Source of the DNA: Candidatus Synoicihabitans palmerolidicus | Lineage (GTDB): Bacteria > Verrucomicrobiota > Verrucomicrobiia > Opitutales > Opitutaceae | DNA: 64,000 nt | Assembly: GCA_020809425.1 (NCBI GenBank) | Contig: JAGGDC010000001.1 | Coordinates: 1,749,001-1,813,000, forward strand | Direction: 5' to 3' | Shown: in pieces, positions 866 to 63,566 of the stretch | How the letters are laid out: each line of letters opens with the position of its first letter | Position numbering within the stretch: the first letter of the stretch is position 1 | Translations under genes and position numbers: made by a program | Notes under the pieces: model-generated | Told to the model about the DNA's origin: nothing | Databases searched by the model: none | What the model saw: the letters and a program-made list of their open reading frames with translations, nothing else

Positions 866-961
866 TTAACCGTTGCGGAGCGCTGCCTCCGGACCTTGTT
901 GTCAAACTCCGACAACAAAGAACTTGCCTATTGTCGAAGCACGACACTATAAAAATCGGGT

Positions 962-1303
962 ATGGACAAAATGCCCAAGGAACTGCTGCAGGGGACTCTT
1001 GACCTCCTCATCCTCAAGACGCTTTCCACCGCGAGCTTGCACGGTTGGGACATTTCCAAGCGTATCGCAGTCGTCTCCAAAGAACGCCTTTCCCTGAAAC
1101 AGGGTTCCCTCTACCCCGCGCTTCACCGCCTCAAAGGCCGAGGTTGGATCGAAGCTGAGTGGGGTGTGTCCGACACTGGCCGCAGTGCAAAATTCTACCG
1201 CCTAACCTCTCTCGGTCGCAAACAATTGGAGACCGAAAAAGCACACTGGCTCTCCTTCGCCTCCGCCATGACCAGCGTGCTGCAGATGGAGGAGGAGGCG
1301 TGA
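962..1303 (+). CDS. PadR family transcriptional regulator
   Basis: A 113-residue protein with the PadR winged-helix layout. It begins LLQGTLDLLILKTLS (helix 1), followed by LHGWDISKRI, the signature QGSLYPALHRLKGRGWIEAEW (recognition helix and start of the wing) and a C-terminal dimerisation helix. It spans the full family length and is intact. The stop overlaps the GTG start of the following ADOP permease (GTGA), and GGAGGAGG just upstream of that start serves as its ribosome binding site, so the two were one transcription unit. In Acidobacteria and Opitutaceae such PadR genes commonly precede ADOP permeases and are thought to control them. Here its partner permeases are dead. A close relative lies at 48951-49298. 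Confidence 0.9.
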   Translation: MDKMPKELLQGTLDLLILKTLSTASLHGWDISKRIAVVSKERLSLKQGSLYPALHRLKGRGWIEAEWGVSDTGRSAKFYRLTSLGRKQLETEKAHWLSFASAMTSVLQMEEEA

Positions 1304-3945
1304 TTGACGAACGCCTACGTTGGATGCGCACCCAACTGCACCGCCTGTTTCGCCGCGGCCAACAGGAAGCCGATCTCGATGCGGAACTGCAATTCCACCT
1401 CGACGCGCTCACCACTCAATTCATCGCGGAAGGCATGACGGAACGCGACGCCCGTCTGGCCGCCCGGCGCGAGTTCGGCTCGGGGGATACTTATCGCGAG
1501 GAACGCGTGGCTCGTGGCGCCCTCTCGCGCTCGCCGACCTGTGGCGCGACATCCGCCACGCCGCTCGCTCACTGCGCCGCAGTCCGGGCTTTTCGGTCAC
1601 GGCAGTGGTTATCCTCGCCCTCGGCATCGGCACCACCACCACCATGGTCAGTGTCCTGCAAACTGTAGTGCTCGCTCCCCCTACCCGTACGGGATCAAGA
1701 CCGCTTGGTCTACTTTTTGGAAAATAATCCCTCGCGCAACATCACCATATTTTCCCAGTCGGTACCCAACTTCGTGGACTACCGAGATCGCACCCAGTCG
1801 TTCGAATCCCTGATCGGCAGCGACGTGCGCAACGTCAACTTGAGCAATGATTTCGCCAGGCCCGACCAAGCCAATTCCGTGCAAATCTCCCCAGGGTTAG
1901 CGATGCGCTCGGCTGGCCATCTGGTGATGGGTGGTGGATTTTTACCGGAGGAAAATACGCCAGGTGGTCCAGCTGTCGTCGTGATCGGGGAGCACGTGTG
2001 GCGCGAACGTTTTGATGCCGACCCCGCCGTGCTTGAACGCACCCTGGATATCGATCGCGTGCCGCATCGTATCATCGGCGTGATCGGTCGCCACGCCGAA
2101 ATCTTGGGTCCATGCGATGTGTGACGTCCGTTACGACCGGACCCCACTCAAGTCGCACGCGATAATCGTTGGCTCACCGTGATCGGGCGACTGGTCCCCG
2201 GCGTCTCATTGGTTCAAGCTCAAGCGGAGGTCGCTACCGTTGCCGCCGGCTTGCGCGCGGAATATTTCGAGGTCATGGAAGGCTGGGGCGGCTACCTGCA
2301 ACCTTTGGCCGACAACGTCATCCCGTCGACATTGCGCCATGCCCTTACCCTTTTATTTGCCGCCGTGGGTGTGCTACAATTGATCGCCTGCGCCAATGTC
2401 GCGAATCTGCTGCCTGCTCGCTCCATGGTTCGCGAACACGAGTTGGCTCTACGAACCGCGTTCGGTGCCACGCGAGGTCAGTTGATTCGCCAACTCCTCG
2501 CCGAAGCCGCAGTGCTGTCAGTAACCGGTGCATGTCTGGGCGGTTTGCTGACGCTGTACAGCATTGACGTGCTGCGGGCTGTCGCCCCGGCGGACATTCC
2601 GCGTATCGACCAAGCTGCGTTGGACGGACGGAGCATCCTGTTCACCGGCCTCATCGCCGTGCTCACCACTCTGGGGGCCGGCCTCCTGCCGGAATGGCGG
2701 TTTTCGCGTGCATCGACTTTCCCGACACTCGGATCCGCCGCCAAGACGGCGGGTCCGTCTCGAGGCAAACAACGACTACGAAACGGTCTCGTCGTGGTGC
2801 AGTTGGCCTTATCGCTGCTGCTCATCGCGGGAGCAGATCTGTTGCTGCGCAGTTTCGAGAAATTGCAGGACGTGGATCCCGGCTACGAAACCGGAGGTAT
2901 CCTGACGTTCAAGATCACTCCCGATGCCAAACTGTATGGCGGCGAGGCTCGCCTCCCACTCTACCGGCAAATGAAGCAACGCCTCAGCGCACTGCCGGGA
3001 GTCACAGGCGTTGGTCTTTTCAGTGGACTCCCATTCGGAGGCGGGCGGGCCAGCCTAAATCTATTCGCCCGCGACTCAGCGGCGCTGCCCGCGGATGAAT
3101 CCGTGCAAGCCTCCTGGCGCATCGTTGATGCCGATTACTTCAACGTACTGAAAATCCCCATGCGATCCGGTCGCGGATTCGAAGATCGGGATCACAATTG
3201 GGATGCCCCTGTAATTATCCTGAGCCAGTCTCTCGCCGAACTCTTTTGGCCGCACGAGGATGCCGTGGGTAAACGCGTTGTACCCGGCAGTGGAGACCAT
3301 GCCTACACGGTGGTTGACGTAGTCGGAGACACTCGGTTGACCGACCTGACGGGAAGTCGTGAACGCCCGCAGATGTATTTCCCACTCACTCTCTGAACCG
3401 GGTGGAACACGATGAGTTTCGCCGTTCGCACCGAACTCCCTCCCGCCACACTCACCGGCGCAGTCCGTTCGTTAATCCACGACGTCGATCCTCAGCAACC
3501 GTTGTTCGATTTCAACACGCTCTCCCATTTCACCGCCGCCCGCCTGCAATCTCCTCGCCTCCACTCCTGGTTGCTAACGGTGTTCTCCGCGCTCGCCCTG
3601 GTCTTAGCCAGCGTGGGTATCTACGCGGTCATGCACACGCTGGTGACCCAACGCACTCGAGAGATCGACGTGCGCATGGCCCTGGGCGCGCCGCGGGGGG
3701 CCGTGCAGCTCATGATGTTGCGCCAAGGGACTAGGTTGATCCTGAGCGGCACTGCCACCGGGACGATCCTCGCGGCGTATTGCTCCCGATTCCTCGCCCC
3801 GCAGCTGTTCCAAACCGAGGCGACCGACCTCGGCGTTTTCTTCGGCGCCGTTGTCATCATCTCGTTGGCGGCATTGGCCGCCATCTTCATTCCCGCCCAC
3901 CGCGCAACCAAGGTTGATCCGATTATCGCCCTGCGCGCCCAATAG
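1300..3945 (+). pseudogene. ADOP-type MacB/FtsX permease, broken
   Basis: It starts at GTG 1300, overlapping the PadR stop. The product would be an 'acidobacterial duplicated orphan permease' of about 880 residues: a short N-terminal prefix (ERLRWMRTQLHRLFRRG), first helix (ALGIGTTTTMVSVL), MacB_PCD domain, central FtsX helices (LLFAAVGVLQLIACANVANL), second MacB_PCD and a last FtsX block ending HRATKVDPIIALRAQ. It is disrupted at least four times: a frameshift near 1510-1525, an extra C in the run 1677-1681, TGA at 2122-2124 and TGA at 3394-3396. The family are inner-membrane permeases without their own ATPase. The adjacent copy at 3974 shares the prefix, indicating tandem duplication. Confidence 0.88.
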
Positions 3946-3973: not shown

Positions 3974-6608
3974 ATGATATCCGAACGCTTGCGCTGGATG
4001 CGCACCAAATTTCGCCGAATTCTGCGCCGCGGCCAACAGGAGGCCGAGCTGGATGCGAAACTACAGTTTCACCTCGACGAACTCACCGCTCAATTCATCG
4101 CGGACGGCATGACGGAACACGACGCCCGCTTGGCCGCCCGGCGCGAGTTCGGCACCGGAGATACTTATCACGAGGAAATGCGTGACACGTGGCGTTCACC
4201 CATGCTCGCCGACGCTTGGCGCAGCCTCGCGTTCGCGTTTCGGTCCCTCGCCCGCACGCCCGGATTTACCCTCATCGCCATCCTCACTCTCGGCCTGGGC
4301 ATCGGCGCCAACACCTCCATGTTCAACCTCGTCAATGGCATCCTCATCAAGCCGCTGCCCTACGCCGAGCCCCAAGAATTGGAGACTATCTATCGCCAGA
4401 CCTCGCAGAACCCCAAAGGGCGCGTATCTGCCCTCGAATTCCTGGAATTCCAGTCCGCCACTTCCACTTACGACGCTGTGCTCGGATACGCCTCCGACAA
4501 CGTGAGTATGGCCAAACCGGGCACCCCGGCCGAGTTCGTCGAGGCCATACGCGTCTCGGCCAACTTCTTTGACGTACTCGGTATTCAACCCTACCTGGGC
4601 CGCTCCTTCCACTCCGAAGAAGAGACCGAGGGACGTCATCGAGTGATCGTGCTCAGTCAGCGTTATTGGCAAACCCGGTTTGGCGGACGCGCTGACGTGA
4701 TCGACCAAAAGGTGCGCATCAACGGCGAGCCGCACGAGATCATCGGGGTATTGCCGAACTCGTTCAATGACTGGCGTCATCTGGGCTAGGTCGATTTCTT
4801 TCGCCCGCTAGCGTTCACCAACGAGGAATTGGCTAATCGTACGCAGAGTTTGGTGCGTCCGATTGGACGACGCGCGGCGAACGCAAGTGACAGCGACACC
4901 GCCGCCGAGGTTGCCGCGTTTGGCCAACGCCTAGCCCGCGATTACCCGGCGGCGCTTGCCGTATCGACTGTCGCCATGGGGTCGAGTACCACATACACGC
5001 TCTCCATGCTCGTGGCGCTGTCCGGCTTCGTGCTGCTGATCGCCTGCTCCAATCTCGCCAACTTCCTCCTCGCTCGCACCATGGCCCGTTCTAGGGAGTT
5101 CGCCGTGCGTGCGGCTTTGGGCGCCTCCTGCGCGCAGCTGCTTCGCCCGCTCTTGATCGAGGCCGTGCTGCTTGCGTTGGCTGGCGGATTGCTGGCTTTG
5201 GTGATCGCGACAGAGGTCTCTGACTGGCTAGCTGTGCGCAGCACGGGCGACAACGGCGATCAAGTGGTAATCCCCCCTCAATTGGATCGTACTCGGGGCC
5301 GTCCTGGCATCCCTCGCGACGGCGGTGGCGTTTGGTTTGGCGCCCGCCCTGTTCGCGCTGCGCCTCAACCTCAATGAAACCTTGAAAAGCGGGGCTCGGG
5401 GCAGCGTTGATAGTCGCGCCCAAAACCGTTTTCGGCAATTGCTTATCGTAGGGCATTTCACCCTCGCCACGGTGCTGCTCTCAGGGGCGACCTTGTTTAT
5501 TTACGGGCTCGATGATCTGAACCATCGCCGGTCGGGATGGAGCTCTGATCGCCTTGTCACGGGCACTTTCCTGCTACCCGACGCCTCCTACGCGAATCCC
5601 CACGATATCACGGCTTTTCAGGACCGCGCTCTGGAGCAGTTGCGGGCATTGCCCGGCGTGGTCTCGGCCGGACTCGCCGCCCATCCTCCGTTCTTCAACT
5701 GGTCCGAATCGCGACGCTTCATCGCGGAGGGACCACTTCCGCCCGAACCGGGGCGCGAACCCGCGGCGATGATCAACGCAGTTTCGCCCGGCTATCTTTC
5801 CACCGTGGGTACATCCCTCATCGCTGGACGCACGTTTGATCCCAGGGACCAGGCCGACTCGCCCCGCGTGTTTGTGATCAACCAATCCATGGCGCGCACC
5901 CTCTTTCCGAATAGGGATCCCATTGGTCGGCGCATTGCCCGCGTATCCGATTCTGACCAGGAATGGGGAGAAATTGTCGGCGTGGTGGAAGACGTGCGCA
6001 ATGTGCTGCCCGAGGCTGTTACCGTGCCTTTCCAATTGTATGTCCCAATGACGCAAGAACCGCGCACCTACAATGAAGTCGCGGTGCGACTCCACGGCGA
6101 AGGGGCGAGCGCCCTGGTCCCGGCCATCCGGGCACTGATGAGCGATCTCGATCCCGATCTTCCTATTCGCAACCTCAAGACCGCCGAAGATCGCGTGTTC
6201 CGCGCCAACTATCAACTCGGTGTACTGCGAGACATGCTCACCGGATTTGCCGTGCTCGGCCTCGGTCTCGCTTCGCTCGGCATCTACGGCGTGATTGCAC
6301 GAACCATGGCTCAGCGCACCGGGGAGTTCGGCATCCGCCTCGCTCTAGGCGCACAAGTGAGCGACATCACGCGACTGGTCTTGGGTTCCGGCGTAAGACT
6401 CGCCTTAACCGGAGCCGTGCTGGGAGCTATCGGCGGAGCGGGGTTGAATCGAGTGATCGCCATGGGCTTCGCCAACATGCAGCTGAATAATCCGTGGATG
6501 ATGGTCACGTCCGTCGCCGTGCTGATCACCGTGGGTCTGCTCGCTTCCTACCTTCCGGCCCGACGTGCGGCCCGCATCAATCCGATCGATTCCCTTCGCT
6601 CCGAGTGA
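3974..6608 (+). pseudogene. ADOP-type MacB/FtsX permease, broken (second copy)
   Basis: ATG at 3974 begins MISERLRWMRTKFRRILRRG, nearly the same prefix as the upstream copy. First helix: ILTLGLGIGANTSMFNLVNG. MacB_PCD follows, then LVALSGFVLLIACSNLANFL, a second periplasmic domain and the final FtsX block SLGIYGVIARTMAQRTGEFG, ending PARRAARINPIDSLRSE. Two lesions are visible: TAG at 4787-4789, and a frameshift at the C6 run 5272-5277, where removing one C restores NWIVLGAVLASLATAVAFGL. The second half (5325-6608) remains a long open frame but lacks its N-terminal membrane anchor. It is the second gene of the PadR-ADOP-ADOP unit and is presumably non-functional. Confidence 0.88.
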
Positions 6609-7010: not shown

Positions 7011-8336
7011 GTGATCTCTCCTTTTCGCCTCATCCGCCTCCTGTCTCCGATTGCGGGGATTCAACTTCGCCTCTCTTCCGCAGGGGTCAAATTCGGACAG
7101 TTGCTTGCCCTCGTGGCTCTCACCACAATTTGCGCGCCATCAGCCTCGGCGGAGGATGATCCGGAATCCGTTAATCAGCTCAGCGCTGATTTCGCACCCG
7201 ATGTCCAACTCGCGCCGTTTACCGTCAATGGCGAACGTCTCTCCATCTCCATCACGCCCGGACCAAGCGCGACCAGCGCTACGCCGAGAAATTCGAGGAA
7301 GAAGTCGTCGAGATCGCTTACGAGACGTTGGAATCCGGAACCGGAGCAGGACTGGTGATTGTGGGCCGAGATAAAGAACCCCACCCCATCTTGGTTTTTC
7401 GTCAATTCACCCAACTGGCGGAAACCGGTCAACTTGACTCCGCCCGTCGCCGCACTCGAGCCCCGACTTTCCAAGTTCCTCCTCGACTGGAAAACACGCA
7501 TGAATCTCGAGGAGGGAAACCAAGATAACAGTGAAGACTTCGGACTCGATTTCGAGACGTTGGTCGTAGCCTTGCTCCTCCCGTTGGAAGATCTCGGCGC
7601 TCAATTGTACCAGCTCGCGTGGGCGGAAAATTTCGGTTCCGGCCGCATCGAACAACGTCTGCGGCAGCTCAAAGTCTCCGACCTCGAAAGTAACCAATTC
7701 GGTCACTACCACTGGGTGTTTTACCTGCCGCCGCGAAATGCTCTGAACAATGTGCTCAAAGCGGTGCTGCCCGTCATGATGAAGACAGAGAAGATGGGCT
7801 TCTTCAAGCGCGCCGCGATGCGCAGCGCTATCTTCGTATTTAAACCTGCCATCAAAAAAGCCATGGAAGGGGTCCGCAAAGGAATGCTCTTCCTGACCGT
7901 CCTCCGCACTCGCAGTGATTACAACGATGAGGAAATCATGTCTCTCACCGGCGCTTACATCGAGGTGCTGATGCCAGACTTTAAGTTCAATGGCAGCACC
8001 CAGCAGCGGCGCGCACTCGAAGCCATCAAGGCCAAAAAACAAGAGAACGCCAAATACGCCAAACATCCTTTTGTCACCCCCTCTCGGCTCGTCGACTTTG
8101 ACGCCGCCAGCTATGACCAATTCGTCGGCAACTACACCGACATAAGAAAAGATGAGAAAAAGACCACCCACCGATTCGCCCGGGATGGTGATACCTTCTC
8201 CTGGCAGTATCATGAGCAAGAACCGATGGTGTTCCATCCCGCCGGAGATCGACTCTTTGTCATCGAAGATGGCAAAATGACGAGCGAATTCCAAATGGAC
8301 GAATCCGGCAAATTGACGGGAGTCGAGGAACGCTGA
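7011..8336 (+). pseudogene. Exported protein with DUF3471-like tail, frameshifted
   Basis: Translation from the GTG at 7011 gives a signal peptide (FGQLLALVALTTICAPSASA) and then a mature start (EDDPESVNQLSADFAPDVQ). The frame shifts near 7245, where one C is missing and HARTKRDQRYAEKFEEEVVE continues in frame +2. It shifts back near 7425, after which the frame stays open to 8336. The C-terminal part includes FVGNYTDIRKDEKKTTHRF and DRLFVIEDGKMTSEFQM, like the small beta-barrel (DUF3471-type) module attached to some secreted hydrolases. The catalytic family is not recognisable. With two shifts the N-terminal third is scrambled, so I call it a pseudogene. Confidence 0.6.
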
Positions 8337-8371
8337 CACCGCCGGCGCAAAACCGTGCCGGTCATGCCCTA

Positions 8372-9167: not shown

Positions 9168-9642
9168 ATGAAAAACTATCTCTGCCTCCTCCTCTCCCTC
9201 ACTGCCGTGAGCGTTCTCCCCACATGGGTTCAGGAAAACCCCGACAGCGCCCAACCTCTGATCAATAGTTCAACCCGCACCACGCTGACCGCGGATAATC
9301 CGCGCATGATTGTGGGATTCACCGTCCCGTCCAATCCGGATCCCGATCGCCCTTTCTACCCCAAATCCCTCCTCATTCGTGCGATCGGCCAGGGACTTTC
9401 TCAATTCGATGTCGCCAACCCACTATTGGATCCAGTGGTGCAGGTGTTCGACGCGGCGGGCAATGAACGTGTCCGCCAGTTGGACTCACGACTTCACCAA
9501 ACCACTCTCCGACGATGACAACGCTACCGCTGAGGCTCGCGCCGCCACCGCCACCGCCGTTGCCAATACCGCCGCGTCGGTCGGCGCTTTCGCCGTCTCC
9601 GTGCCGAGCGTTGAAACCGTAACGGTCGCCGACTATTCCATC

Positions 9643-9678
9643 GTGGCCGGCCTCACTGGTGTGGCCGGCCTCACTGGT
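9643..9678. repeat. 18-bp perfect tandem duplication
   Basis: GTGGCCGGCCTCACTGGT occurs twice back to back inside the secreted-protein pseudogene. The length is a multiple of three, so it adds the six residues VAGLTG without changing frame. Confidence 0.95.
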
Positions 9679-9743
9679 GGCAATTACACCGTGGTCGTGT
9701 CCTCCGCTTCCGGTGCCTCGGGCGAGGTGTTGGTGGAAGTCTA

Positions 9744-9785
9744 TTCCGTGCACAACTACCCCCTTCCGTGCACAACTACCCCCCC
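9744..9785. repeat. 20/22-bp tandem duplication
   Basis: Unit TTCCGTGCACAACTACCCCC at 9744-9763 is followed at once by a second copy at 9764-9785 that ends in seven C instead of five. It lies at the 3' end of the secreted-protein pseudogene and changes the reading frame of the last codons. Confidence 0.95.
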
Positions 9786-10027: not shown

Positions 10028-11058
10028 ATGCTAGCGATACCACCCAGAAGCCACTTACCCCTGAACGATGAAGCTCTTGCGGCTGGTGAAGCCAGATTGC
10101 TGGAATTTATCTCCGAACAATTGGCTGACTTCGGAGGAGACATGGAGATCGCCGAGGGTTGCTGGACATTGCTCGCCGTGCCATGCCACGACGACGATAC
10201 CACTTTATTGCTCGCGGATTACTGAAGTCGGCCAATTTCGTTTTCGTCGAAGGACAATCGGCCGACGACGCCTGGACCATTTTCTATGTGGCAACCTCCG
10301 TTCGCGCCGACGCCCGCCATTGGTTGCAGGGGGTCGCCCAATTACTCCAAGGCGGGTCCCTCTCGCCGTCACCCACCCAACTTTCCCAAATCGATGGCTT
10401 GCTCGAATTAGCGATGCCACACCGCCTCGCGCGTCAGCTGATCGACGCCATGCAAAGTGGCACCATGCCAGTTGCCCCCATTCGCGATCCCGCCAAAGTT
10501 CGCCTGTTGCTCGATCGCTTGCACCAACAGGAACCCATGTTTCTGTCGGCCCTGCATCGCCTGCTGATGCATCACTCCATTGATCTGGCCGTACTCTTCG
10601 ACACCATCACCGCCGAAGATATCGCCGTCAGCAACGAGCTGACCCAAGGCGAAATATCCAGTGATCCGTTCTTCGAGAGCCGTCAATCCGCCGCCGCCGG
10701 GATTCGTCAACGATTGATCGAGGACAAAATTATCAACCCTATCGACCAGCACAAACACACCGACGTGAGCAACCCCTACGCCACGCTCATGCGACTTCGA
10801 TTCCAAGGCAACCGGGTAATCCTTCGCGTGGACGGTGTGGACTACCCCACTCCTTGTGCCGCACTACTCGATACTCTGACCAAAATCCGCCGTCGTCTCT
10901 ATCGTGGTATCGAGGTATGGGCGCCGGACTCACGTGCCCCATGGGCAACCGACGATTCCGCCTATCATCTTCGCTTCATCCGTCAGCAACTCTCCGAATT
11001 TTTAGACCGCGCTCACGCCGAGTGCCTGCATATACTCAATCGAGCCTTGGTCAATTAA
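10028..11058 (+). pseudogene. Hypothetical cytoplasmic protein, one frameshift
   Basis: ATG at 10028 opens MLAIPPRSHLPLNDEALAAG and runs to a TGA near 10225. From about 10205 the coding character continues one frame over as LLKSANFVFVEGQSADDAWT and stays open to 11058. Joined, the product is about 340 residues, soluble, rich in helices, with no signal peptide, membrane segment or motif known to me. Phrases such as WTIFYVATSVRADARHWLQG and YATLMRLRFQGNRVILRVDG look like genuine globular protein. The downstream acetyltransferase starts only 1 base after its stop, so the two probably formed an operon. Confidence 0.5.
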
Positions 11059-11059: not shown

Positions 11060-11939
11060 GTGGCGATTCAACAGGGATTGTCCGTTCCTTCCCATTATGC
11101 GCATCCCGCGCTGTCCCCCCCCTTTCCCCGCGTGTCCACCTTCACCAATCTCGGTTACCTGACCGACTCCATCTTCCATCAGGAGGACGGCCTGATTGAG
11201 CAGCGCTCCGATTACGCCGTCGTGCGCACTCCGAGTAATCCTTCTTTTTGGTTCGTGGTTCGGCAACCTCCTGCACTTTCACCGCGCTCCCGTTGCAGGT
11301 GACATGCCGCGTTGGCTCGCCTTTCATGCCTCCGAATTTGGCACCACGCTCAACCACGTCACCCTCAGTTGGGACGAACCCATTCCCGGGGAAAATGCCG
11401 CCTGCATCGCGGCCGGATTCCGACTCAACAACGATATGGTACTTTCCATGTCGTCCTATGCCGGCGGCGTGACCACCAATCCCAACCGCATCATCCGTCC
11501 TCTCGTCAGCGACGACGATTGGCAGGCCATCGCAGCGCTGCAGATAGACGTCGATCGCGAGTATTTTGCCTACCCCGAAGACGGCGGTGAGTTTCGCCGC
11601 ACCCAACTCCTCTCCGCCCGGCAAATGTCCCAACGCGGTCGAGGCGATTGGTGGGGTGCCTACCTCCAGGACCAATTAGTCGGCGGCATGGGTCTGTACT
11701 TCGACCGCGAACGCACGCTAGGTAGATTCCAATACGTCACCATCCTGGCAGCATTCCGCCGCCAACGCGTCTGCTCCACTTTGCTCGATCACATCGCGAG
11801 GCACGCCTTCGCGACCGTCCGTCCACGACAGCTGGTCATCAACACCGGTGCCGACGAGACCAACCCTGCGAAAGCCGCCTACCAAAAAATAGGGTTCAGT
11901 GAGGCCACCCGCAGCTTCGCCGTCACTCGGATGATTTGA
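11060..11939 (+). pseudogene. GNAT family N-acetyltransferase, broken by a 7-bp tandem duplication
   Basis: The start is GTG 11060 or an internal codon; the coding part begins STFTNLGYLTDSIFHQ and continues DYAVVRTPSNPSFWF. The C-terminal half (LGRFQYVTILAAFRRQRVCS, then KAAYQKIGFSEA) carries the acetyl-CoA fold: the 'V.P..R..G'-like segment is degenerate as ILAAFRRQRVCS, and the 'N..A...Y.K.GF' helix is typical. The frame breaks at 11249-11262, where TGGTTCG is present twice in tandem. Deleting one copy restores NPSFWFGNLLHFHRAP, the conserved pattern in this subfamily. The lesion is therefore a slippage mutation in an otherwise good gene. Substrate unknown. Confidence 0.8.
11249..11262. repeat. 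7-bp tandem duplication causing a frameshift
   Basis: TGGTTCG is repeated twice with no spacer within the acetyltransferase gene. One unit removed restores the conserved reading frame. Confidence 0.95.
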
Positions 11940-11971: not shown

Positions 11972-13453
11972 TCAGTTCTTCTTGCTCCGTAGCGGAGGCA
12001 TCACGATCGGAAAATCATCACCCGGCATCGCCGCGTAGCTTGGTTTCTGCCAACCGGGCGCCAGCTCATCGATCGTCACGGACTGCCCCGTTTCAAAACA
12101 CACGTTGGCAGCCGATCCGATCCGCACCGAAGCCGCGCCACCCCTGTCATCCGAAGCGCGCCTTAACGGATCCGCCGGCACGTTATCGAGAAAGAGTTCA
12201 TCGAGCATGACTTTGTCACCTCCCCCATGGCCACCCTTGGCTTCATGCGAAGGGATGATTTCGGCCGCACCTCGCAACGGAATCACCCGCGTCGAAATTC
12301 CCCCCCTGAGCCACCCCTCCTTGCTCCACGTCCGTGCCATTTACATAAACCTTCTCCACGATCGAGTGTTCGATCCGTCCCCGAGTGCCATTAAACGCGA
12401 TCTGGTAGCCTTCCCACGAATTGAAGGCGTTCAGCGAATAACTCAGCGTCACGTTGTTTTCATAACCCACGATCACATTCATCGTATCCTCGATATCAAT
12501 ACGTGGATTGAACACACACCGATCCCGGAAATAGCCATCATGATGCTCCTGGTCGAGGTAGAGCGATTTGAGTGATGGACTGGCGGCCAGATCCATACGG
12601 AAAGTGCATTTAGCCGCTTCCGGGCAAGTTTGGCAGCGCTCATATGATAGGACTCCAAGCCCAAGCGTTTCGCCATCTCCGGCGTATAGAACTCCCGTTT
12701 GCCCATCGCCGTGACGATCATGGGGTTCGACCCCACCCACCAATTCACCAAATCGAAATGGTGAGTCACCTTGTGCACCATCAAGCCCCCCGAATATTTC
12801 TTCTCACCGTGCCAACGCCGAAAATAATCCGCCCCATACTGTGTGTTGAGCAACCAATGAAAATCAACCGACAAGAGATCACCGATGCGACCGTCCATCA
12901 AGAGCTCCTTCACCTGGCTCCGGGCGGGAGTGTAGCGGTAGTTGAAGCACTCTCGCACTTTCCGCCCCGTCCGCTTCACCGCATCCTGAATCTTACCGAC
13001 CTTCGTGGCGTCCGTCGTCATCGGTTTTTCGGTGATCACATCACACCCCGCCTCCAACCCTCTCACAATGTAGTTGTCATGGGTGGAATCCATGGTGGTC
13101 ACAATGAGGTAGTCGGGCTTCGTTTCCTTCACCATCCGTTCGAAATCATCCGGCGCATACCCAGGCGGAATTGGAGCACTGTATTCCAACGACCGTTGCC
13201 GAGCCAGTTCGAGTCGCCCCGCATTCAGATTACACATGCCCACCAACTGCGCATGGTCCCGATAGGTGGACTGGATCGCTTTCTGATACATCCGTGCCCG
13301 CGATCCAGTCCCCACCTGGGCATACCGGCGCTTACGCGGTCCCGCCTGCGCCATTACGGAGGGGGCAAGAGTCAGTCCGGCACTGGCGATGACTGCAGTT
13401 TTCACAAAATCACGGCGGCGGAGCCCGAGCCTGAATCAATGGGGGTAATCATG
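11972..13453 (-). pseudogene. Gfo/Idh/MocA family oxidoreductase with Tat signal, broken
   Basis: Minus-strand gene whose N-terminus reads LGLRRRDFVKTAVIASAGLT, a twin-arginine signal. The Rossmann start follows (YAQVGTGSRARMYQKAIQ), then the family EKP motif in DVITEKPMTTDATKV and HVTHHFDLVNWW-type residues (VHKVTHHFDLVNWWVG). The frame changes near 12650 and again near 12310, and the last part ends GDDFPIVMPPLRSKKN. The likely ATG near 13451 is out of frame with the signal, so a further N-terminal shift exists; only a GTG at 13405 is in frame. At least three lesions. Relatives are exported sugar or inositol oxidoreductases common in Verrucomicrobiota. Confidence 0.8.
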
Positions 13454-23910: not shown

Positions 23911-24113
23911 CAGACCCACGGCATTCGACCATTCACGAATCGCCAGCGAAATCGGATCCCTCCTCCGCATGCCTGCAAATAGCTTCACACCCGAATAAGC
24001 ACATTCATCTTATCTGCTAACGCCCGATATAATGGCTTGAAATGACCCCATGCATCGGGAGGCTCCTCTCCACCTTCCGTGTCCACCTGCACGGAGCCCG
24101 TTTGATTGTTCCC

Positions 24114-25424: not shown

Positions 25425-25445
25425 TCCGGCTCCACTTTACTCGCC

Positions 25446-45375: not shown

Positions 45376-45378
45376 CGC

Positions 45379-46640: not shown

Positions 46641-46687
46641 CTCTCACTCGCCAAACCGAACCCCTTCTGCATCAGTAACCCCGACTC

Positions 46688-48950: not shown

Positions 48951-49298
48951 ATGGACAAAGACAAAACCGACCTCCTGCAGGGCACGCTCGACATGCTCAT
49001 CCTGAAATCGCTGCAGCTCCAGCCCATGCACGGCTTCGGCATCAGCGTGCGCATCCGTCAAATTTCCTCCGAGGTGCTCCGCGTCGAGCAAGGCTCCCTC
49101 TACCCCGCCCTCTACCGCCTGGAGGAGCAGGGTTGGATCAAGTCCGACTGGGGCGTTTCCGAAAACAACCGCAAAGCAAAATTCTATGAGATCACCAAGC
49201 TCGGCCGCAAACAACTCGACCGCGAGACCGCCAACTGGGCCCGTCTCTCCGACGCCGTCAACGCCGTCCTCGGCACGAAGCTGGAGGACCTCGCCTGA
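48951..49298 (+). CDS. PadR family transcriptional regulator
   Basis: A 115-residue intact winged-helix protein closely similar to the one at 962: DLLQGTLDMLILKSLQL, MHGFGISVRIRQISS, EQGSLYPALYRLEEQGWIKS, DWGVSENNRKAKFYEITKLG and a C-terminal helix. TATAAA lies seven bases before the ATG, while no good Shine-Dalgarno sequence is seen. It precedes three ADOP permeases, all broken, separated from the first by 186 bases. Probably a repressor of the former permease operon (inference from the family and arrangement). Confidence 0.9.
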   Translation: MDKDKTDLLQGTLDMLILKSLQLQPMHGFGISVRIRQISSEVLRVEQGSLYPALYRLEEQGWIKSDWGVSENNRKAKFYEITKLGRKQLDRETANWARLSDAVNAVLGTKLEDLA

Positions 49299-49484
49299 AT
49301 GCTACTCGGACGGCGTGGAAGTCGGCCCTCCCCTGTGGTCTAGCACCGCACCACCTTCTCAAAATTGAAATAAAACCCGCGGCCTCACCGCCCGTGCGTA
49401 GCGATAGGCGCTTATGCCGCCGAAGCCTTGGCGAAGGAGCAAGCCCTCGGTGTCCATCCGTGGTAAAAAAATACCCGCCCTGCC

Positions 49485-52171: not shown

Positions 52172-54710
52172 ATGCCCTCCGTTTCCGGCCTTCTCACCCG
52201 CCTGCGCCGCGCCTTCGAGCGCGATATGGCCGCTGAAATGCGCACGCACATCGAACGCGAAACCGCCCGCCGCATCGCCGCCGGCGAGGATCCTGCCATC
52301 GCCCGCCGCCGTGCCGCGGCCGCATTCGGCTCCGTCGATGCCCGCGTGGAGGAAGTGCGTGACCGCCGCCTCGGCAATCGAATCGAAGACTTTGTCCAAG
52401 CCATCCGTTTCGCCCTGCGCCGTCTGCGCCGCACTCCCGCCTTCACCGTGACCGCGCTCGCCCTTTGCATCGGTGCCAACCTTGCCATCTTCACCGTCGT
52501 TGACGTCTTGGTGTTGCGGCCGTTGCCGTTTTCCGAGCCCGAGCGATTGGTCACGGTGATCAACAGCTACCCGGGCGCCGGCCACCCGCGCGCCGGACCG
52601 TCCATTCCTAACTACTTTGCTCGGCGTGAGGCAATCGATGCTCTCGCCAACGTTGCCTTGTTCGATCCGGTTGGCGGCGTCATCGGCGAAACTGGCAGTA
52701 TGCGCAAAGTCGACGGAGCTCGAGTGACGCCGGAATTCTTCGCGACACTGGGCGTGCCTTTGACCATGGGCAGGATGTGGGGCGAAGACAAGTTCACCTA
52801 CCAAACCAGCGGCGTCATCGTGCTAACGCACGAGTTCTGGCAGTCGCATTTCGGGGCGGCCCCCGACATTCTCGGCCGGACCCTCATCGTCGACGGCGTG
52901 CCTGCGTCCATCATTGGCGTGTTGCCCCCAAGGTTCCGGTTTTTGGCCAGCAAGGCTCAATTTTTCAAACCGCTCGCATTCAATCCACCGGAACGTGCGC
53001 CTACCAACCGGCACAACAGTCTGCCCGGCATGATCATGATCGGCTGACTCGCCCCCGGAGCGACGCTCGCTGCAGCTCAGGCTCAACTGGATGGGCTCAA
53101 TGTCCGGCAGGCCGAGGTCGACCCGAATCAGGCCCGCTTGGCGGAGGGGAATTTCCACAGCCTGATTCGTCCGCTGCACACCGACACCATTCGCGAGATT
53201 CAGTCCACGCTTCTGCTGCTCCAAGCCGGCGTGCTCGTTTTGCTCCTGATCGACGCAGTAAACCTCACCAACTTGCTACTGGTCCGCACTAGCGGACGCA
53301 GCCGCGAACTCGCCGTGCGCCAAGCCCTCGGAGCACGTCAGGGCTACCTCGCCCGTGACGCGTGGCTGGAAACCACCCTCATCACATTCGGCGGCGGCGC
53401 GCTCGGAATGGGCATCGGCGCGGCGGGGGTGCGATTGCTGACGACCCTGGGCGCAGATCAATTGCCTCTCGGTGCCACGATCTCCTTCGACACGCGAGTG
53501 GTGGGGATCGCCTTGGCCGCCACATTGGTTCTAGGCGGACTACTCGCGTTTGCTCCGAGTTGGTTGATGCACCGTATTTCGATCAATTGCCAACTGCAAT
53601 CTGAAACGGCGGGAGGCACGCCTGGCGGGGCATCGCAGAGGCTTCGACAGACATTCGGCATGGTGCAGATCGCGCTCGCATTCGTGCTGCTGTGCGCCGC
53701 CGGTCTGCTCGGCGTGAGCCTGAACCGAGCACTCGCGCAGCCCGTTGGCTTCACGCCCAATAATATCCTAGTCGGTGAACTCTGGCTGCCTTGGAAGGGG
53801 TATCCCAGCGGCATGCACCAACCCGTTTTCGTCAATCGCCTGCAGCAGGCACTCATGAGCGAACCCGGCGTGTTGCAAATCTCGGTTAACAACAGTCTGC
53901 CTTTCGGCGGGTTCGTGAATGGTAGACCGATCGCCGTCGAGGATAACGGAAACAATACGTCCACCAACGTGCGAACGCATCACCACTCCGGAGTGACCTC
54001 CGGGTATTGGCAAGTGATAGGAATCTCGTTCCTGCGTGGACGCCTCCCAGGCAACGAAGTTTTTGCGCCAGACGCCCAACAAGTTTGCGTCATCGATCAG
54101 GCGATGGCGGATGCCTAGTGGCCCGATTGGAAAACGAGTGAGCTTCAGCACCACGTTCGAGCCCCAAAAAGCGGCGACGATCATCGGGGTCGTGGCCACG
54201 GTGAAGCAGAGGCATCCGACCGAAGTCAAACCCACGGGTATGGTCTACTCTCCATTTATTCAATTTCCGTCCAACTGGTTTCGGATCGTCGCGCGCACCC
54301 AGATGCCTCCTGAGACCATGGCCAAGTCGCTACGTAGGGCCGTCGCACATCTAGACCCTGAATTGGTCGTCACCAAAATCACCACGATGGAGCAACTGAT
54401 CGACGACAGCCTCTTAACGAGACGCGCTCCCGCGATACTGACCGCGATCTTTGCAGGCGTCGCCTTGGTGCTCGCCACCGTAGGAACCTATGGCGTGTTG
54501 GCCTACACGGTCAGTCATCGCCGTCGCGAAATCGGCGTGTGGGTCACCGGTAGAGCCATGCAAAATTTCTTGTTCGAGATCGTCCCTTTCCCTCCCGTTC
54601 TCATCGCCGCGACCGCCGCACTGATGGGTCTCGTCGTGCTGGTCGCGATCCTTGTTCCCTCCATTCGCGCCGCCACCATCGATCCCTCCGAAACCCTCCG
54701 CCATGAATAA
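52172..54710 (+). pseudogene. ADOP-type MacB/FtsX permease, broken (fourth copy)
   Basis: ATG 52172 opens MPSVSGLLTRLRRAFERDMA. First half: LALCIGANLAIFTVVDVLVL, MacB_PCD with HEFWQSHFGAAPDILGR. TGA at 53045-53047 stands where arginine is usual (MIGRLAPGAT). Second half in the same frame: LVLLLIDAVNLTNLLLVRTS, RSRELAVRQALGARQGYLAR, then a second MacB_PCD. TAG at 54116-54118 and a frameshift near 54125 (NPIGKRVSF). The last FtsX block lacks about 30 residues between REIGV and WVTGRAMQNFLFEIV, so a segment with the conserved 'RMALGA' is deleted. It overlaps the start of the next copy by eight bases. Confidence 0.87.
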
Positions 54711-57408
54711 ACTCTCCGGCCTCTTCACCCGCCTCCGCCGCGCCTTCACCCGCCGTAACTTCGAACGCGATATGGCCGCCGAAATGAAGCACCACATCGA
54801 GCTTGAGACCGCCCGCCGCATCACCGCCGGCGAGGCCCCTGCCACCGCCCGTCGTCGCGCCGCCGCTGAGTTCGGCTCCGTCGATGCCCGCGTGGCGGAA
54901 GTGCGTGAAGCGCGCTTCGCGGCGTGGCTCGACGAGACGATTCGACAGACACGCTACGCTTGGCGCGGGTTGCGTAAGTCTCCCGTGTTCACGCTCGTTG
55001 CGGTCGGCACCATGGCCATCGCGATCGGCGCCGGCACCGCCGTGTTCTCGCTGGTCAACGCCATCCTGCTGCGCCCGCTCCCCGTGCCCGCGCCGCAGGA
55101 GCTGCGCCTCCTCCACTGGGTCGGCACCGACGTGGACATGCGCTCGATCAACCGCACGTTTTCCCGCACCGTTGGTGACGTCACCGAAGGCGAATCAGTC
55201 AACCAACCCACCTTCGCCGCCCTTCGCGCCAACGTCTCGGACATTGCCGACGTGATGGGCTATTTTCCCCTGCGTGAACTCACCGCCCAGTCCGACCGCA
55301 ACGTCTTTGCTTCCACCGGCCTCATGGTATCGGACAACTTCTTCACCGGACTCGGCGTGCAGCCACACCTCGGCCGCACCTTCCAACCTGGCGACGAGGC
55401 GGCCGGTGCGCCGCTCGCCATTATCAGCTACGGTCTGTGGCAGTGCCAGTTTGGCAGCGATACTTCGGTCATCGGCCAGCCGCTGCGCATGCACGGCGTC
55501 CCGCACGAGATCGTGGGCGTGTTACCGCCGGATTTTGAGGGTATTCGGCCCGGCCAATCGACCGGCGTCTACGTACCGCTCATCGATGGTTCACCCTTTC
55601 TGTATGTAGGTTTTGGTGACGACTGGCACTGGTTCGTCCGCTTGCTGGTCCGTGTGCGGCCTGGCGCGAACGAGGTCGAGTTGACCAATCGCCTCGGCGC
55701 GATCTTCCCCCCTTCACCACAGGCTACATGAGCGAACCACACATCGTGACGCACGACGGGGCTGGTGGGCTCGACTTCGACCGCGACACCTATCGCACGC
55801 CGTTGCAACTTATGCTCGGCATCACCGCCTTCGTCATGCTGGTGGCTTGTGCCAACCTCGCCGGGCTCTCACTCGCGCGAGGCGCCGCTCGCCAACACGA
55901 ACTCGCGGTGCGCCACGCCCTCGGCGCGGGTAGACGAAGGCTGGTGCAGCAGGCCTTGGTCGAGAGCACCGTGCTGGCCGGGCTCGGGGGCGCGCTGGGC
56001 GTGCTGCTCGCGGCCTGGATGCAGGGCGCCTTGTCCCGATTGCTCGCCGGCACCAGTGAAGGCTTGCACTACGCGCTCACGCTCGACGGTCCCGTGCTCG
56101 CTTTCGCCCTCGCGACGGCCGGCCTCACCGCCTTGCTCGCGGGCCTGCCGTCGGCCTGGCGCGCCGGGCAGCACCGACCCTTTGCACAGCCTGCGATCAC
56201 GCGGAGCGATCGGCGCACCGCGCCTGCGCCTGGGTCCAGTGCTCATCGTCGGGCAGATCTGCCTATCGCTGGTCGTCCTCGCCGGCGCCGGGCTGTCTCT
56301 TCGGAGCCTGTTCAACCTGCAACGCATCGATCCAGGCTTCGTCATCGAAAACACGCTTCTCTTCCGCCTCAACCCCGCCAGTGCGGGCTACGCCGACGCC
56401 GCCCGCATCGGCTACTATGACCGCGTGCAGGCCGCGTTGGACAACCTGCCCGGGGTACAACACGCCGGTCTCATGCAGTTCCTCCCTCTCACCGACGAGG
56501 TCTCGGTCGGCGGAGTCCAACTCACATCGCTGGCCGATGCCCAAATCGAGGGCAGCTACACCTTTCGCCAGATGGTCAACGCCCGCTTCTTCGACGTCAT
56601 GGGCATCCCGCTCATCACCGGCCGCGCGATCGCGGCGAGCGACACCGCCGACTCACCCAAGGTCATCGTGGTCAATGAAACCTTTGCCCGTCGCTACCTC
56701 GCCGGGCGCGACCCCGTCGGCCACACCCTGCGCATGTGGAGCGCAGAGTGGCGCATCGTCGGCGTGTGCGCAGACACCATTTTTGACGACGTCAAAGACG
56801 AGCCGCCGCCCACCTCCTACTTTCCGATGAGCCAGCGCCTTTACGGTCGTTTCGCCGCGACTTCGGTCGCCTCGGCGACCTTTGCGGTGCGCTCGGACTT
56901 ACCCGCCAGCGTGCTCACCGCCGACATCCGTCGGGTCGTGACTGCAATCGATCCGGCCGTGCCTTTGATGGACGTAATGATGCAAACCGCGCTCCTCGCG
57001 CAGAACCTCGGCCGCGAACGCATGATCGCCATCCTCGGCTCGGCGCTCGCCACCCTCTCCTTCGTGCTCTGCGCCATCGGACTATATGGAATCATCGCCT
57101 ACGACGTGAGCCGCCGCCGCGGGGAGATCGCCATCCGCATGGCCATCGGCGCCCAGCGCGGCGATGTCGCCCGACCCATCGTGCGGCAGGCCCTCACGTT
57201 AACCGTAATTGGTACGATCGTTGGACTTCCCGTAATGTTCGGCGCAATCCTTCTGATCCGCAGCCAATTGCACGGTATCGAACCCCACGACCCGGCGACT
57301 TTGGCCGCCGTGGTCATGACCCTGCTTCTCGTCGCCACCCTCGCCGCCCTGCTTTCGGCTTGGCGAGCCACCCGCATCGATCCCATCGAAGCCCTGCGCA
57401 GTGAATAG
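54703..57408 (+). pseudogene. ADOP-type MacB/FtsX permease, broken (fifth copy)
   Basis: ATG 54703 lies inside the end of the previous copy. Prefix MNKLSGLFTRLRRAFTRRNF, first helix AVGTMAIAIGAGTAVFSLVN. The first piece ends at 55731. The frame shifts there, and MSEPHIVTHDGAGGLDFDRD then LMLGITAFVMLVACANLAGL continue. A second shift near 56200 leads to GPVLIVGQICLSLVVLAGAG, and the frame stays open to 57408 with LCAIGLYGIIAYDVSRRRGE and the canonical end RATRIDPIEALRSE. Only two lesions: the least damaged of the five copies. Confidence 0.87.
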
Positions 57409-58160: not shown

Positions 58161-59910
58161 GACCGACTGCCCCCCCCGTCCATTGAATATTTCACCCTCG
58201 CAGCCTATTTTATCCTGCTGATTGTGATCGGCGGCGTCTTCGCCCGATTTAATCGCAACCTGAGTGATTTCACCCGCGGCGGGGCCCAGTGCTCTTGGTG
58301 GCTGGTCGGCACGAGCACTTTGATGGCGGGGATCAGCGCCTTCACGTTCACGGGCAACGGCTCGGCCGCCTACGCTGCGGGCCCCACGTTCCTCATTATC
58401 TATCTGGCCAACATCCTGGGTTACGCCATCGGCGCACTTTTTCTCGCCCGCTGGTATCGGCAAACCCGGGCATTAACATCCGCCGATGTCGTTCGCGCCC
58501 GCTTCGGCCCGGCGGTGGAAAAACTGTATATCGGCGTCAGTCTGGTGCAGGCACCATTCAGCGCCGCGGTCCAACTCTGGTCGTTGGCCGTGTTTGTGCA
58601 CGCGGTGTTTGGGCTGCCGCTCATCGTCGTCATCGGACTCGTCACCATCCTCTATTCAGCCTCGGGCGGCATGGCCACGGATGTCCTGCAGGGCATCGTG
58701 CTATTTGGCATGACTCTGGTGGTGGCGGCGCTGGCGCTCCACGCCGTGGGGGCTGGACAGGCTTTTTTGCCCACTGGTCCGATCCGGAGATCGTGGAGGA
58801 TTTCCGTTGGGTGAAACCAGCCGGACAATTTCCCCCGGACCGCTTCACACATGGCCGTGGATGGTGGTGGTGTTCATCATGCAGTTGACCGGACAAATCC
58901 ATCTGGGTGCTTCCAGCAAGTTCCTGGCAGTGAAAAACGGCCGCGAGGCCACCAAAGCGGCTGGATTGGCCTTGGTGCTCATGGCGCTGAGCAGTGTGAT
59001 CTGGTTTATCCCTCCGATGGTCGCCCGATTCATCTATGCCTCGGGAGTCGAGTCCCTGAGTATTAACGATCCGGCGACGGCCGCCTATGCAGTGGCCGCT
59101 CGCCAATTGCTGCCACACGGCCTGATGGGCGTGATGATCGCCGCCATGTTTTCGGCCACCATGAGCAGCATGGATATGGGCATGAACCATCTCATTGGCA
59201 TCATCGTGCGAAACCTGCTGCCGTCGGCGCGCGCCCGCCTGCGGCTGGCTCCACTTTCCGAATTCGTGCAAGTGCGGTGGTGCCGGGGTGTCACGGCCGT
59301 GCTGGGGGGCTTGATCATCACGTTCAGCCTGATATTCGCTCAACAAGGTCGGTGCGTGCTATTCGACGCCTACCTGTTCTTTGCCTCTCTCGTGAATTTC
59401 CCCGTATTTCTGCCGCTGCTGGCGGGCATCTTTTTCCGGCACCTGCCCCGCTGGGGATTCATCGCCATGATGGGCACCGCGCTGATTCCCGGGATCACTT
59501 CGCTGGTGCAGGAGAAGCTGGGGGCAACGCCATGGACGATTCAGGAACGTGGGGCCTGGGTGTTCGGCTTTTTCCTGATCGCGTTGTTCGTGAGGCTGCT
59601 TTTCTCCCGCCGGTCCCCTCCGGAGCACCGCGCCCGCGAGGCCAAGTTCTTCGCCACCCTGCATCGCCCGGTGAACTTTGCGGAAGAGGTCGGGGCCAAT
59701 CGTGACGCCGAACAGGCCTCCCTGATTGGCCGCGCGGTCTGCATCACGGGTGGGCTGTTCCTTTTGTTTCTAGTGGTGCCCAACTCCGGTGCTCATCGCG
59801 CGGTCATCCTGGCGCTGGCGTTGTTTATTATCGCTATCGGCGCAATTCTGCTTCGTGTCGCGCATCAAGCCGGCAAAGGTGAAACCGCCTCGCGCCATGA
59901 GAGCCCGTGA
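58161..59910 (+). pseudogene. Sodium:solute symporter (SSS) family protein, broken
   Basis: The coding signal begins PSIEYFTLAAYFILLIVIGG without an ATG in frame. Conserved SSS elements: FNRNLSDFTRGGAQCSWWLV (unwound first helix), TSTLMAGISAFTFTGNGSAA, SASGGMATDVLQGIVLFGMT, QIHLGASSKFLAVKNGREAT and MMSATMSSMD-like MFSATMSSMDMGMNHLIGII. Frameshifts occur near 58755 (T6 run at 58764-58769 region) and near 58850. The second piece from 58807 stays open to 59910 and ends with the last helices (VICITGGLFLLFLVVP region). In Opitutaceae such transporters accompany polysaccharide-use genes. Substrate unknown. Confidence 0.82.
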
Positions 59911-61377: not shown

Positions 61378-61473
61378 AACACGCAGCGGAATCGCGGAGC
61401 GGGCGGAATTCCGACCGAAACTTCTGGGGGATCAGGAGCGAAGCTATCGGGGGGCGACATCATTCAGGCAGGG

Positions 61474-63566
61474 TCAGAACCGGTAGCGCAGGCGAGCCAG
61501 AAAATTGGTCGGCGTTCCGGGTCGCACGGCCGTGCGGGAGCTGACCGACTCGATGTAGTCTTCATCCAAGGCATTGCGCAGGTTCACATCCACCGCCCAA
61601 CGCTCACGGACATAACTTACGCTCAGATCGAGACGCGTGTAGCTGGGAACTAAAAACGAGTTGTTCGCGTCCCCCACCCGGTCGGATACGTGGATAATAC
61701 CACAACCGACGCCAAAACCGTCGAGCGGATCCGATTGCCACATGTATTTGTTCCAAACACTGAACGTCTGATCGGGCGTGTTAGGCACACGCAGCCCGAT
61801 TCGCGCCGGATTCACATCCCCGCTCACTTCGGCCTTCAAGAGCGAGGCCGAGCCGAGAATTTGCCACCCAACCAGCGGACTTGCGGTCAGGTCCAACTCC
61901 ACCCCATTACTGGAACTCTCGCCCGTCTGGATACGACAACCGAGGCGCGCGGGATCGGATTGAAGCACGTTGTTCTGCACCAAATCAAAGTAGCTCAAAG
62001 TGAGCGTCACTCGCTTGTCGGCCAGTTCGAACCGGACTCCCGCCTCCACCAGTTCCGAGGTCACCGGGTCAAAGGTGGTGCCATCCAGATCAGCGACGGT
62101 CGAGGCCACTTGAATCTCGGAGTTGACCACATAAACTGAAACCCCGTCGCGCGGTAACCATACCGCTCCAAAGCGAGAATTCGGGGCATCGCCGCCCGCC
62201 CGATTACTGGCGCCCGTGCGGTAGTTGTTGGTCAAATTGGAAAATTCCGCCCAACGAGCTCCCGCCAACAACGACAACCGATCATCAAAACTAAATGTCT
62301 GCTCCTGCACATAATACTCCCGATATCACGTGTCCGTGGAGTTGTTGGAGCAAGGGGAAAACGTTCCAGGAGTGGCCTGCCCACGCTGGGGATTCACCAC
62401 CGCGATGGGAGCTAGGCTGGCACGGTCCACCGCACCTCCGCTGAGATTCCACCCATACTCGTAGCCGGCCAATAGGTTGTGCCGCACCGCGCCGGTCTCG
62501 AAATTGAAGAGCAAATCGGTCTGCAGGTAGTGGTTGTCGACGTAGTTATTTTGTCGTGACACTCGCCGATTGACCAGCTCGCCATTGGCGGACACCTCGG
62601 TTTGATTGACGATGTCCCCCACGTCATTGGTTTGATTATTGCGATAGGCCACCCGGGCCTAAAAATGCTCACTTTTAGTGAACAGTGCCTCGTAGCGCTG
62701 GGGGAAGGTCTGCACGTCGTTGTAGGCAAAGTCTTCCCCGGAATAGGTCTCCGGCCCCACGGCGAGTGGAGCAGTGCCGTAGGCCAAAATGCCATAATAA
62801 GGCCGGCGGCGGTCGTCGGTGTATTCCCACTCTCCCACGAACTTCAACGCGTCGGTCGCTTGAAAAGTCACAATCGTGAAACAAACGTGCGATCGATGAA
62901 GAAGGTGTCAACGTGGGATCCAGAGGCCTGCCACGCTCCCGTCAGGCGGTAGGCCAGACGACCGTCTCCGACCGGGCCCGTGGTGTCGAGGACGGCGCGT
63001 TTGAAGGAATCGCTGCCAACCTGTGCCTCCAAGGTGGTGCTGGCGACCGGTTGAGGCACCTTGGACAGAATATTCATCGCGCCGCCCGGCGAAGTGCGGC
63101 TCATGATCACCGAAGCGGGGCCCTTGGCGATTTCAATGCGATCCATGTTGGCAGTGTCACGAGGGGCCCGTCCCGTGTCGCGAAATCCATTCTTGAAAGG
63201 AATCCCGGTTGTAAACCCTCGCATCTCGAAGCGATCCCCGCGGGAGTTATTGCCCTCGGTAACGCCGCTGGTGTAGCGCAGCGCGTCTGCCATCACCAAC
63301 GCCTGCTGATCGGCGATGAAGGAATTATTGATAACCTGAATAGACTGAGGCGTTTTGAGAATCTCAGTATTGGTCTTCGTTCCCGAGACGGAATTTTCGG
63401 AACGATAACCTTCGTCCGATTCGACCGAGATCTTAAAGGGAGACAACTTCACCAGATCGTCCGCCAACGCCACCTCGGACGTTTGAGCATGAACCAGAAT
63501 AAGAATGAATACGGAAAGGAATAATGGAAACGTGATTCCGCGAACAGTCGACAGAGAGGGTAACAT
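61474..63566 (-). pseudogene. TonB-dependent receptor, broken
   Basis: ATG 63566 opens a signal peptide (ITFPLFLSVFILILVHAQ), then LVKLSPFKISVESDEGYRSE and the plug domain (TEILKTPQSIQVINNSFIAD, MADALRYTSGVTEGNNSRGD, MDRIEIAKGPASVIMSRTSP, GGAMNILSK), as in siderophore-type receptors. Barrel strands follow to the end FLARLRYRF with a C-terminal phenylalanine. Lesions: a frameshift near 62870, TAG at 62659-62661 (glutamine expected) and TGA at 62326-62328 (tryptophan likely). In Opitutaceae these receptors often import oligosaccharides; next to sulfatase and LacI remnants that is likely here. About 695 codons in all. Confidence 0.88.

Follow-up and report, generated by a model that had tools for sequence, protein, structure and literature searches.

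A 64,000-nucleotide stretch of DNA from Candidatus Synoicihabitans palmerolidicus (Opitutaceae), referred to here as the window, spans bases 1,749,001-1,813,000 of contig 1 of its genome assembly (G000; 4,399,668 bases in 10 contigs, with a listed completeness of 69.8%). The source is a bacterium of an Antarctic sea squirt (S. adareanum) that is thought to make the anticancer compound palmerolide (PMC8636102). Frameshifts and in-frame stop codons interrupt a large share of the genes in the window, and a block of respiratory genes that includes a terminal oxidase is nearly free of them. Frameshift-aware alignment validated 34 lesions, 25 frameshifts and 9 stops, in 16 of the 36 distinct window genes that were aligned. 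Three more genes outside this strict set, a MacB-like gene, a TonB-dependent receptor gene and a weak kinase match, appear to be broken as well. The initial annotation, made from the letters of the window, had counted about two dozen broken genes; that many genes are broken was borne out, and the number proved too high, with 16 validated strictly and about 19 loosely. Six of the lesions fall in a pseudouridine-synthase fusion gene and five in an IS66 transposase gene.

The same annotation had described an intact respiratory island. All the genes that it listed there (copper ATPase, SCO1, ctaA, ctaB, DUF420 and ctaC to ctaG) are open and of full or nearly full length, and the island as a whole has one flaw, a broken cupredoxin gene lying among them (Table 1). 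The block from 17.2 to 33.6 kb makes up 35% of the aligned bases and holds 2 of the 34 window lesions (P = 8e-5), a value that is descriptive only, because the block was chosen post hoc and about 1.8 kb outside it was counted twice. A lesion call in ctaC at 24043 was discarded as a start-site artefact. A ctaD protein scan of named genomes covered the best 80 of 141 relatives, and the window's own genome possibly lies outside these. Several gene sets have been retained in this genome, the respiratory block being one of them.

Table 1. Genes and repeats of the window with their coding state (coordinates are window positions; ~ marks approximate frameshift positions)
Feature	Coordinates	Strand	Lesions and remarks
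MacB/FtsX-type permease, broken	1318..3942	+	frameshifts ~1504, ~1677; stops 2122, 3394
MacB/FtsX-type permease, broken	3974..6605	+	stop 4787; frameshift ~5273
Gene without Pfam match (505 amino acids in congener), broken	7110..8357	+	frameshift ~7251; first 88 residues unaligned
Gene without Pfam match (191 amino acids in congener), broken	9168..9756	+	frameshift ~9459
Gene without Pfam match (349 amino acids in congener), broken	10040..11049	+	frameshift ~10208
GNAT acetyltransferase-like gene, broken	11135..11936	+	frameshift ~11246
Gfo/Idh/MocA-type oxidoreductase, broken	11984..13417	-	frameshifts ~12643, ~12296
MgtE-type divalent cation transporter, intact	14110..15468	+	neighbours broken
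FG-GAP/UnbV_ASPIC protein gene, broken	15592..17234	+	frameshift ~15748; stop 15909; N-terminal part not found
P-type (E1-E2) ATPase (annotated as copper ATPase), intact	17230..19128	-	
SCO1/SenC gene with CusF-like domain, intact	20042..20968	-	
ctaA (COX15-CtaA), intact	21050..22015	+	
ctaB (UbiA family), intact	21943..22905	+	
DUF420 gene, intact	22905..23336	+	
Cupredoxin (plastocyanin/azurin family), broken	23442..23922	-	frameshift ~23616; stop 23591; between DUF420 and ctaC
ctaC (COX2 and cytochrome c domain), intact	24042..25424	+	
ctaD, intact	25446..27398	+	88-91% identity to congener proteins
ctaE (COX3), intact	27423..28292	+	
ctaF (COX4_pro), intact	28289..28645	+	
ctaG (Caa3_CtaG), intact	28765..29559	+	
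CitMHS/TrkA_C transporter, intact	29608..31401	+	
Insertion sequence-like repeat (first family)	31867..32412	-	truncated end
Pyridoxal phosphate-dependent enzyme, intact	32676..33647	-	91% identity
Weak kinase match, apparently broken	35556..36685		31% identity; outside strict set
Metallo-beta-lactamase-fold hydrolase, broken	37579..38395	-	frameshift ~38128
DUF218 gene, broken	38357..39076	+	stop 38594
IS66 transposase, broken	40005..41588	+	frameshifts ~40710, ~40799, ~40944, ~40987; private stop 40674
UPF0176/rhodanese/pseudouridine-synthase fusion, broken	44443..46232	-	four frameshifts, two stops
Na/Ca exchanger, intact	46679..47623	+	
Ion channel gene, broken	47808..48547	+	frameshift ~48369; excess non-third-position changes
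PadR regulator, open	48963..49292	+	alignment begins at congener residue 40
MacB-like gene, probably broken	49391..52091	+	three frameshifts, one stop; 36% identity, outside strict set
MacB/FtsX permease, broken	54703..57405	+	frameshifts ~55708, ~56166
Sodium:solute symporter, broken	58179..59877	+	frameshifts ~58770, ~58847; excess changes on G000 branch
TonB-dependent receptor, coding sequence divided among two or more frames	61477..63674	-	plug domain 62871-63566; barrel end 61477-62310

The reference proteins were codon-model predictions from the congener genomes G001, G003 and G005, a first reference set built from the longest frames having been discarded with the antisense frames that it included. 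A lesion was accepted only where conserved residues lay on both flanks (up to 40 aligned residues each), window matches were counted at 40% identity or more, and only regions with a congener match were judged. In the window, 37 alignment rows passed; two of these belong to one MacB gene, which leaves 36 distinct matches, of which three are short, partial and at 42-47% identity. A coding-potential hidden Markov model alone proved a poor lesion detector, with 6 frameshift calls in the window against the 34 homology-based lesions, because it accommodates a frameshift by placing a stop and then a fresh start. No Rfam family was above threshold in the window. The assembly analysed here is about 100 kb larger than the total of 4,297,084 bases given by the describing paper (PMC8636102).

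Lesions are by no means confined to the window. When the same procedure was applied to a 60-kb region around rpoB and to three spaced 20-kb stretches, all four contained them (20, 18, 6 and 27 once start artefacts had been removed, the first figure still counting four stops in two antisense frames, which were discarded from later counts). These three stretches belong to a spaced sample of 15 stretches of 20 kb, or 300 kb of G000; the other 12, whose matching congener regions lie outside the reference sample, gave few congener matches, and four gave none. Later counts also exclude frames whose congener or target differences are without a third-position peak. With coding-like frames only, and with 4 of the 123 rows left out, the G000 sample, which contains the deliberately chosen rpoB region, comprises 88 lesions (21 stops) in 119 rows and 123 kb. 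The same filter applied to G001 against G003 proteins, as a control, gave 9 lesions in 161 rows and 159 kb. The frequency of pseudogenes is thus far above that of the relative, at 43 of 119 rows (about a third) versus 6 of 161, and the lesion rate per kilobase is about 12 times higher in G000 than in G001, the single congener used as control. Among the frames that the filter rejected were 19 calls in the control (14 rows) and 17, obtained by subtraction, in G000 (4 rows); three start artefacts were taken out by hand on the G000 side only. Two rpoB-region calls, at 15639 and 22407, were discarded as products of over-extended reference starts, in genes whose start sequences suggest that they are rpsC-like and rpsL-like. 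In many genes the lesions run at about one per kilobase, and they are scattered across the sampled regions. Frames of at least 300 amino acids cover 0.457 of the 300 kb of G000, compared with 0.656 in G001 and 0.731 in G003 (200 kb each), and the hidden Markov model, used as a contrast only, made 79 frameshift calls in the 300 kb versus 5 and 6 per 200 kb in G001 and G003. GC content is 0.57-0.62 over the 15 spaced stretches, versus 0.56-0.63 in G001 and 0.60-0.66 in G003.

Core genes do not share this lesion rate. An equal rate on both sides was the outcome that the initial annotation had named as speaking against relaxed selection, and it was not found: the respiratory block has its 2 of 34, and 38 minus-strand genes around rpoB, which total 28,752 nt and include 17 homopolymers of at least six bases, carry no lesion at all. 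A family search named rpoB alone among the 38; the others presumably include ribosomal protein genes and rpoC, going by position, size and start sequences. In the same 60-kb region, a gene of 1,549 residues resembling 2-oxoacid:ferredoxin oxidoreductase has ten lesions. Elsewhere, dnaE, mutS and mutL are whole, as are chaperonin and Hsp70 genes, and neighbours of dnaE, mutS, mutL and the Hsp70 gene carry lesions, in frames compared without a third genome. Core information-processing genes are kept (rpoB, dnaE, mutS, mutL and the 38 rpoB-region genes), and an RsmB/F-type rRNA methyltransferase gene is broken. The same family search did not find in G000 the second DnaE-like polymerase that is present in G001 and G003. 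Three contigs of 87,602, 86,136 and 74,136 bases fit palmerolide clusters 1, 3 and 4 of the describing paper in length within two bases (PMC8636102), and the 20-kb pieces taken from contigs 7, 9 and 10 match perfectly across their overlaps. Frames on the palmerolide contigs, assigned to polyketide synthases (PKS) from this match to the published clusters, are open over 18.6 kb and more than 20 kb.

Lesions also tend to be fewer in conserved genes. Among the 89 of 123 rows suited to this analysis (34 had no congener pair, an unverified frame or fewer than 60 codons), the 16 genes with a congener identity of at least 92% have none, the 28 genes at 85-92% have 8 and the 45 genes below 85% have 45, and lesion density declines with congener identity (rho -0.50, p = 7e-7). 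The window alone gives rho -0.44 (p = 0.05). A clear loss of constraint is visible in a minority of the broken genes, among them the symporter (58.2-59.9 kb), the ion channel (47.8-48.5 kb) and, outside the window, a gene at 17114-18480 of stretch L040.

The damage extends to flagellar genes. The flagellar export gate gene flhA is in pieces, with one TAG stop and two frameshifts, and fliR has one frameshift, flhB and fliQ being open (24764-29388 of the joined stretch L357-L359, G000:C1:225001-285000). The G003 flagellar-cluster proteins beyond fliQ had no accepted match in the rest of these 60 kb. In the same stretch, the ortholog of hemA, which encodes glutamyl-tRNA reductase, contains two frameshifts next to short C runs (19929-20932, 76% identity). 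The broken hemA, which adjoins an open ccsB-like gene, is odd in the presence of an intact terminal oxidase. A lipoamide-dehydrogenase-like gene (Pyr_redox_2, Pyr_redox_dim; L042, 7565-8930; 89% identity) has one frameshift.

Mobile elements are part of the same picture. Two copies of the IS66 element at separate places differ by 31 substitutions in 2,509 bases (1.2%) without any indel and have four frameshifts in common, a comparison that concerns a mobile element and not a host gene. Insertion sequence proliferation relative to the congeners was found for the two further IS-like families that were counted: in the spaced 300-kb sample the first has nine copies of at least 150 bp and the second five, and a search of 1.33 Mb from G001 and G003 revealed neither. 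The longest frame of another copy of the first family had no Pfam match, and a copy of the second outside the window carries a DDE_3 transposase domain. Remnants of both families lie in the window at 31867-32412, 63834-64000 and 8366-8708. A perfect inverted duplication of 3,239 bp is present in G000:C5:385001-445000 (1-3239 and 23799-27037, about 20 kb apart); it contains a broken IS66 transposase gene, and its copies flank a block of conserved genes.

Taken together, these observations argue that the window belongs to an Opitutaceae bacterium, associated with an ascidian, whose genome is in early, ongoing decay, a reading to which we give a probability of roughly 0.84. The relaxed selection and genome reduction proposed in the initial annotation are supported, as broken genes are frequent in other sampled regions and general assembly error is unlikely. 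A host-associated life would have made many genes dispensable and weakened selection on them; indels, arising partly by homopolymer slippage, nonsense mutations and insertion-sequence activity could then have become fixed in unneeded genes, and purifying selection would have kept those still needed, including the genes for aerobic respiration and polyketide synthesis. Amid the lesions, the terminal oxidase block and the rpoB-region genes are intact, as are the long palmerolide-contig frames, dnaE, mutS, mutL and the genes for the chaperonin and Hsp70. Provided that the lesions are real, the decay is recent, since the majority of the broken genes remain similar to functional ones at the codon level. 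Loss of mismatch repair is common in advanced genome reduction and not required early; it was not found in G000, and as a cause of the frameshifts it was ruled out by the open mutS and mutL. With mismatch repair present, the indels therefore need no mutator.

A number of points weigh against this reading. The lesions were read from the assembled sequence, and 11 of 75 frameshifts lie no more than 10 bases from a homopolymer of at least six, where 0.8 would be expected, an enrichment that fits consensus error and is also explained by slippage. Much of the conservation trend rests on the self-chosen rpoB region: leaving it out weakens rho to -0.25 (p = 0.09), and of the 10 remaining genes with a congener identity of at least 85%, 3 are broken. 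The initial annotation had proposed a dN/dS-type comparison of broken and intact genes; when changes unique to G000 or to the congeners were compared by codon position in 28 broken and 57 intact genes, the two mostly failed to separate. Codon-position shift gave p = 0.18 for all genes and p = 0.54 for the less conserved class, and total changes gave p = 0.51 for all genes. It was in the less conserved class that broken genes had more total changes (p = 0.003) and more first-plus-second-position changes (p = 0.03), among several tests and uncorrected. The genome, at 4.4 Mb, lies inside the congener range of 3.6-6.1 Mb. Both hemA and the lipoamide-dehydrogenase-like gene are broken, though normally needed in a respiring cell. 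To the authors of the describing paper, no ongoing genome reduction was apparent, and a high pseudogene content was suspected (PMC8636102); the broken genes contradict the former statement.

The most direct alternative holds that the lesions are consensus errors of the hybrid 454/Ion Proton/PacBio assembly and that the genes are intact in the organism. Frameshifts do outnumber stops and cluster at homopolymers, a first co-assembly from 454 and Ion Proton reads was fed into a second (PMC8636102), and the listed completeness of 69.8% falls below the 82-100% of seven same-genus relatives. We nevertheless regard this explanation as very unlikely: such errors should not spare 28.8 kb around rpoB with its 17 long homopolymers, broken and intact genes are interleaved, 21 of 88 lesions are stops (28 of 101 in a looser set), and the two IS66 copies have lesions in common with no indel between them. 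The palmerolide-contig frames, open over 18-20 kb, point the same way, with the proviso that these clusters have a higher read depth (PMC8636102). Rather less improbable, if still doubtful, is real decay mixed with an appreciable fraction of residual homopolymer errors, in which case hemA, the cupredoxin gene and the lipoamide-dehydrogenase-like gene, for example, would actually be intact, a view compatible with early decay. Several genes with one or two lesions retain a constrained codon pattern, and the C runs beside the hemA lesions and the oddity of losing hemA next to an intact oxidase lend it substance; rpoB-region genes with similar homopolymers have no lesions, however, and recent real mutations would look identical.

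The usual turnover of accessory genes that any free-living bacterium undergoes has in its favour that the G001 control also contains some lesions. Against it stand a lesion rate per kilobase about 12 times higher under the same filter and the presence of flhA, the RsmB/F-type methyltransferase gene and hemA among the broken genes, and we consider it highly improbable. Recoding by programmed frameshifts or a reassigned stop codon has a negligible chance of being correct: no supporting evidence was found, frameshifts occur in both directions together with in-frame TAA and TAG stops, and the rpoB-region genes and long palmerolide-contig frames read normally in the standard code.

Early genome decay, the preferred interpretation, has possible consequences for lifestyle. 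If the hemA lesions are real and there is no second copy, the preserved oxidase would need external haem; we treat the point as no more than a lead, given that some lesions could be residual errors and that the search was limited to the sampled regions. An obligate, non-motile, host-dependent bacterium, with flhA, fliR and the sole sampled hemA dead and respiring perhaps with haem or a precursor from the ascidian or a neighbouring microbe, is conceivable and at present unlikely. The describing paper took flagellar biosynthesis as consistent with horizontal acquisition (PMC8636102); on this unlikely reading, with flhA and fliR dead, flagellum-driven acquisition would no longer apply.

The decay bears on palmerolide supply, that is, on the choice between culturing the organism and expressing the pathway elsewhere, and it provides an example of recent genome decay in a symbiont of a cold-water host. 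The process itself is of a known kind, early symbiont genome reduction as in Candidatus Didemnitutus mandela and Candidatus Thermopylae lasonolidus, and the value of the finding lies in the correction of a published reading of a biomedically interesting symbiont. Another parallel, Sodalis glossinidius, is a gammaproteobacterium of an insect, unlike G000, and is not known to have a repeated polyketide cluster. This recent tsetse symbiont, mentioned in PMC5698493, resembles G000 in its very many pseudogenes and its proliferation of mobile elements. Candidatus Didemnitutus mandela, a mandelalide-producing tunicate symbiont, has in common with G000 the ascidian host, the family Opitutaceae, many pseudogenes and a repeated PKS cluster that persists amid the decay of the remaining genome (PMC5698493). 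It is further reduced, with 2.68 Mb, 69% coding and 51.9% GC against 4.4 Mb and 57-62% GC (15 spaced stretches) in G000 (PMC5698493). Candidatus Thermopylae lasonolidus, a lasonolide-producing sponge symbiont of the Verrucomicrobia, differs in host and lineage; it is like G000 in its large genome (about 5 Mb) and is described as in early-stage reduction, with a PKS cluster in three copies and about 16% pseudogenes (PMC9600693). Its pseudogenes were called by truncated length, and the percentages are therefore not directly comparable with those of G000 (PMC9600693). The three verrucomicrobial symbionts with repeated trans-acyltransferase PKS clusters that are grouped in that paper (PMC9600693) would all show decay around a kept cluster.

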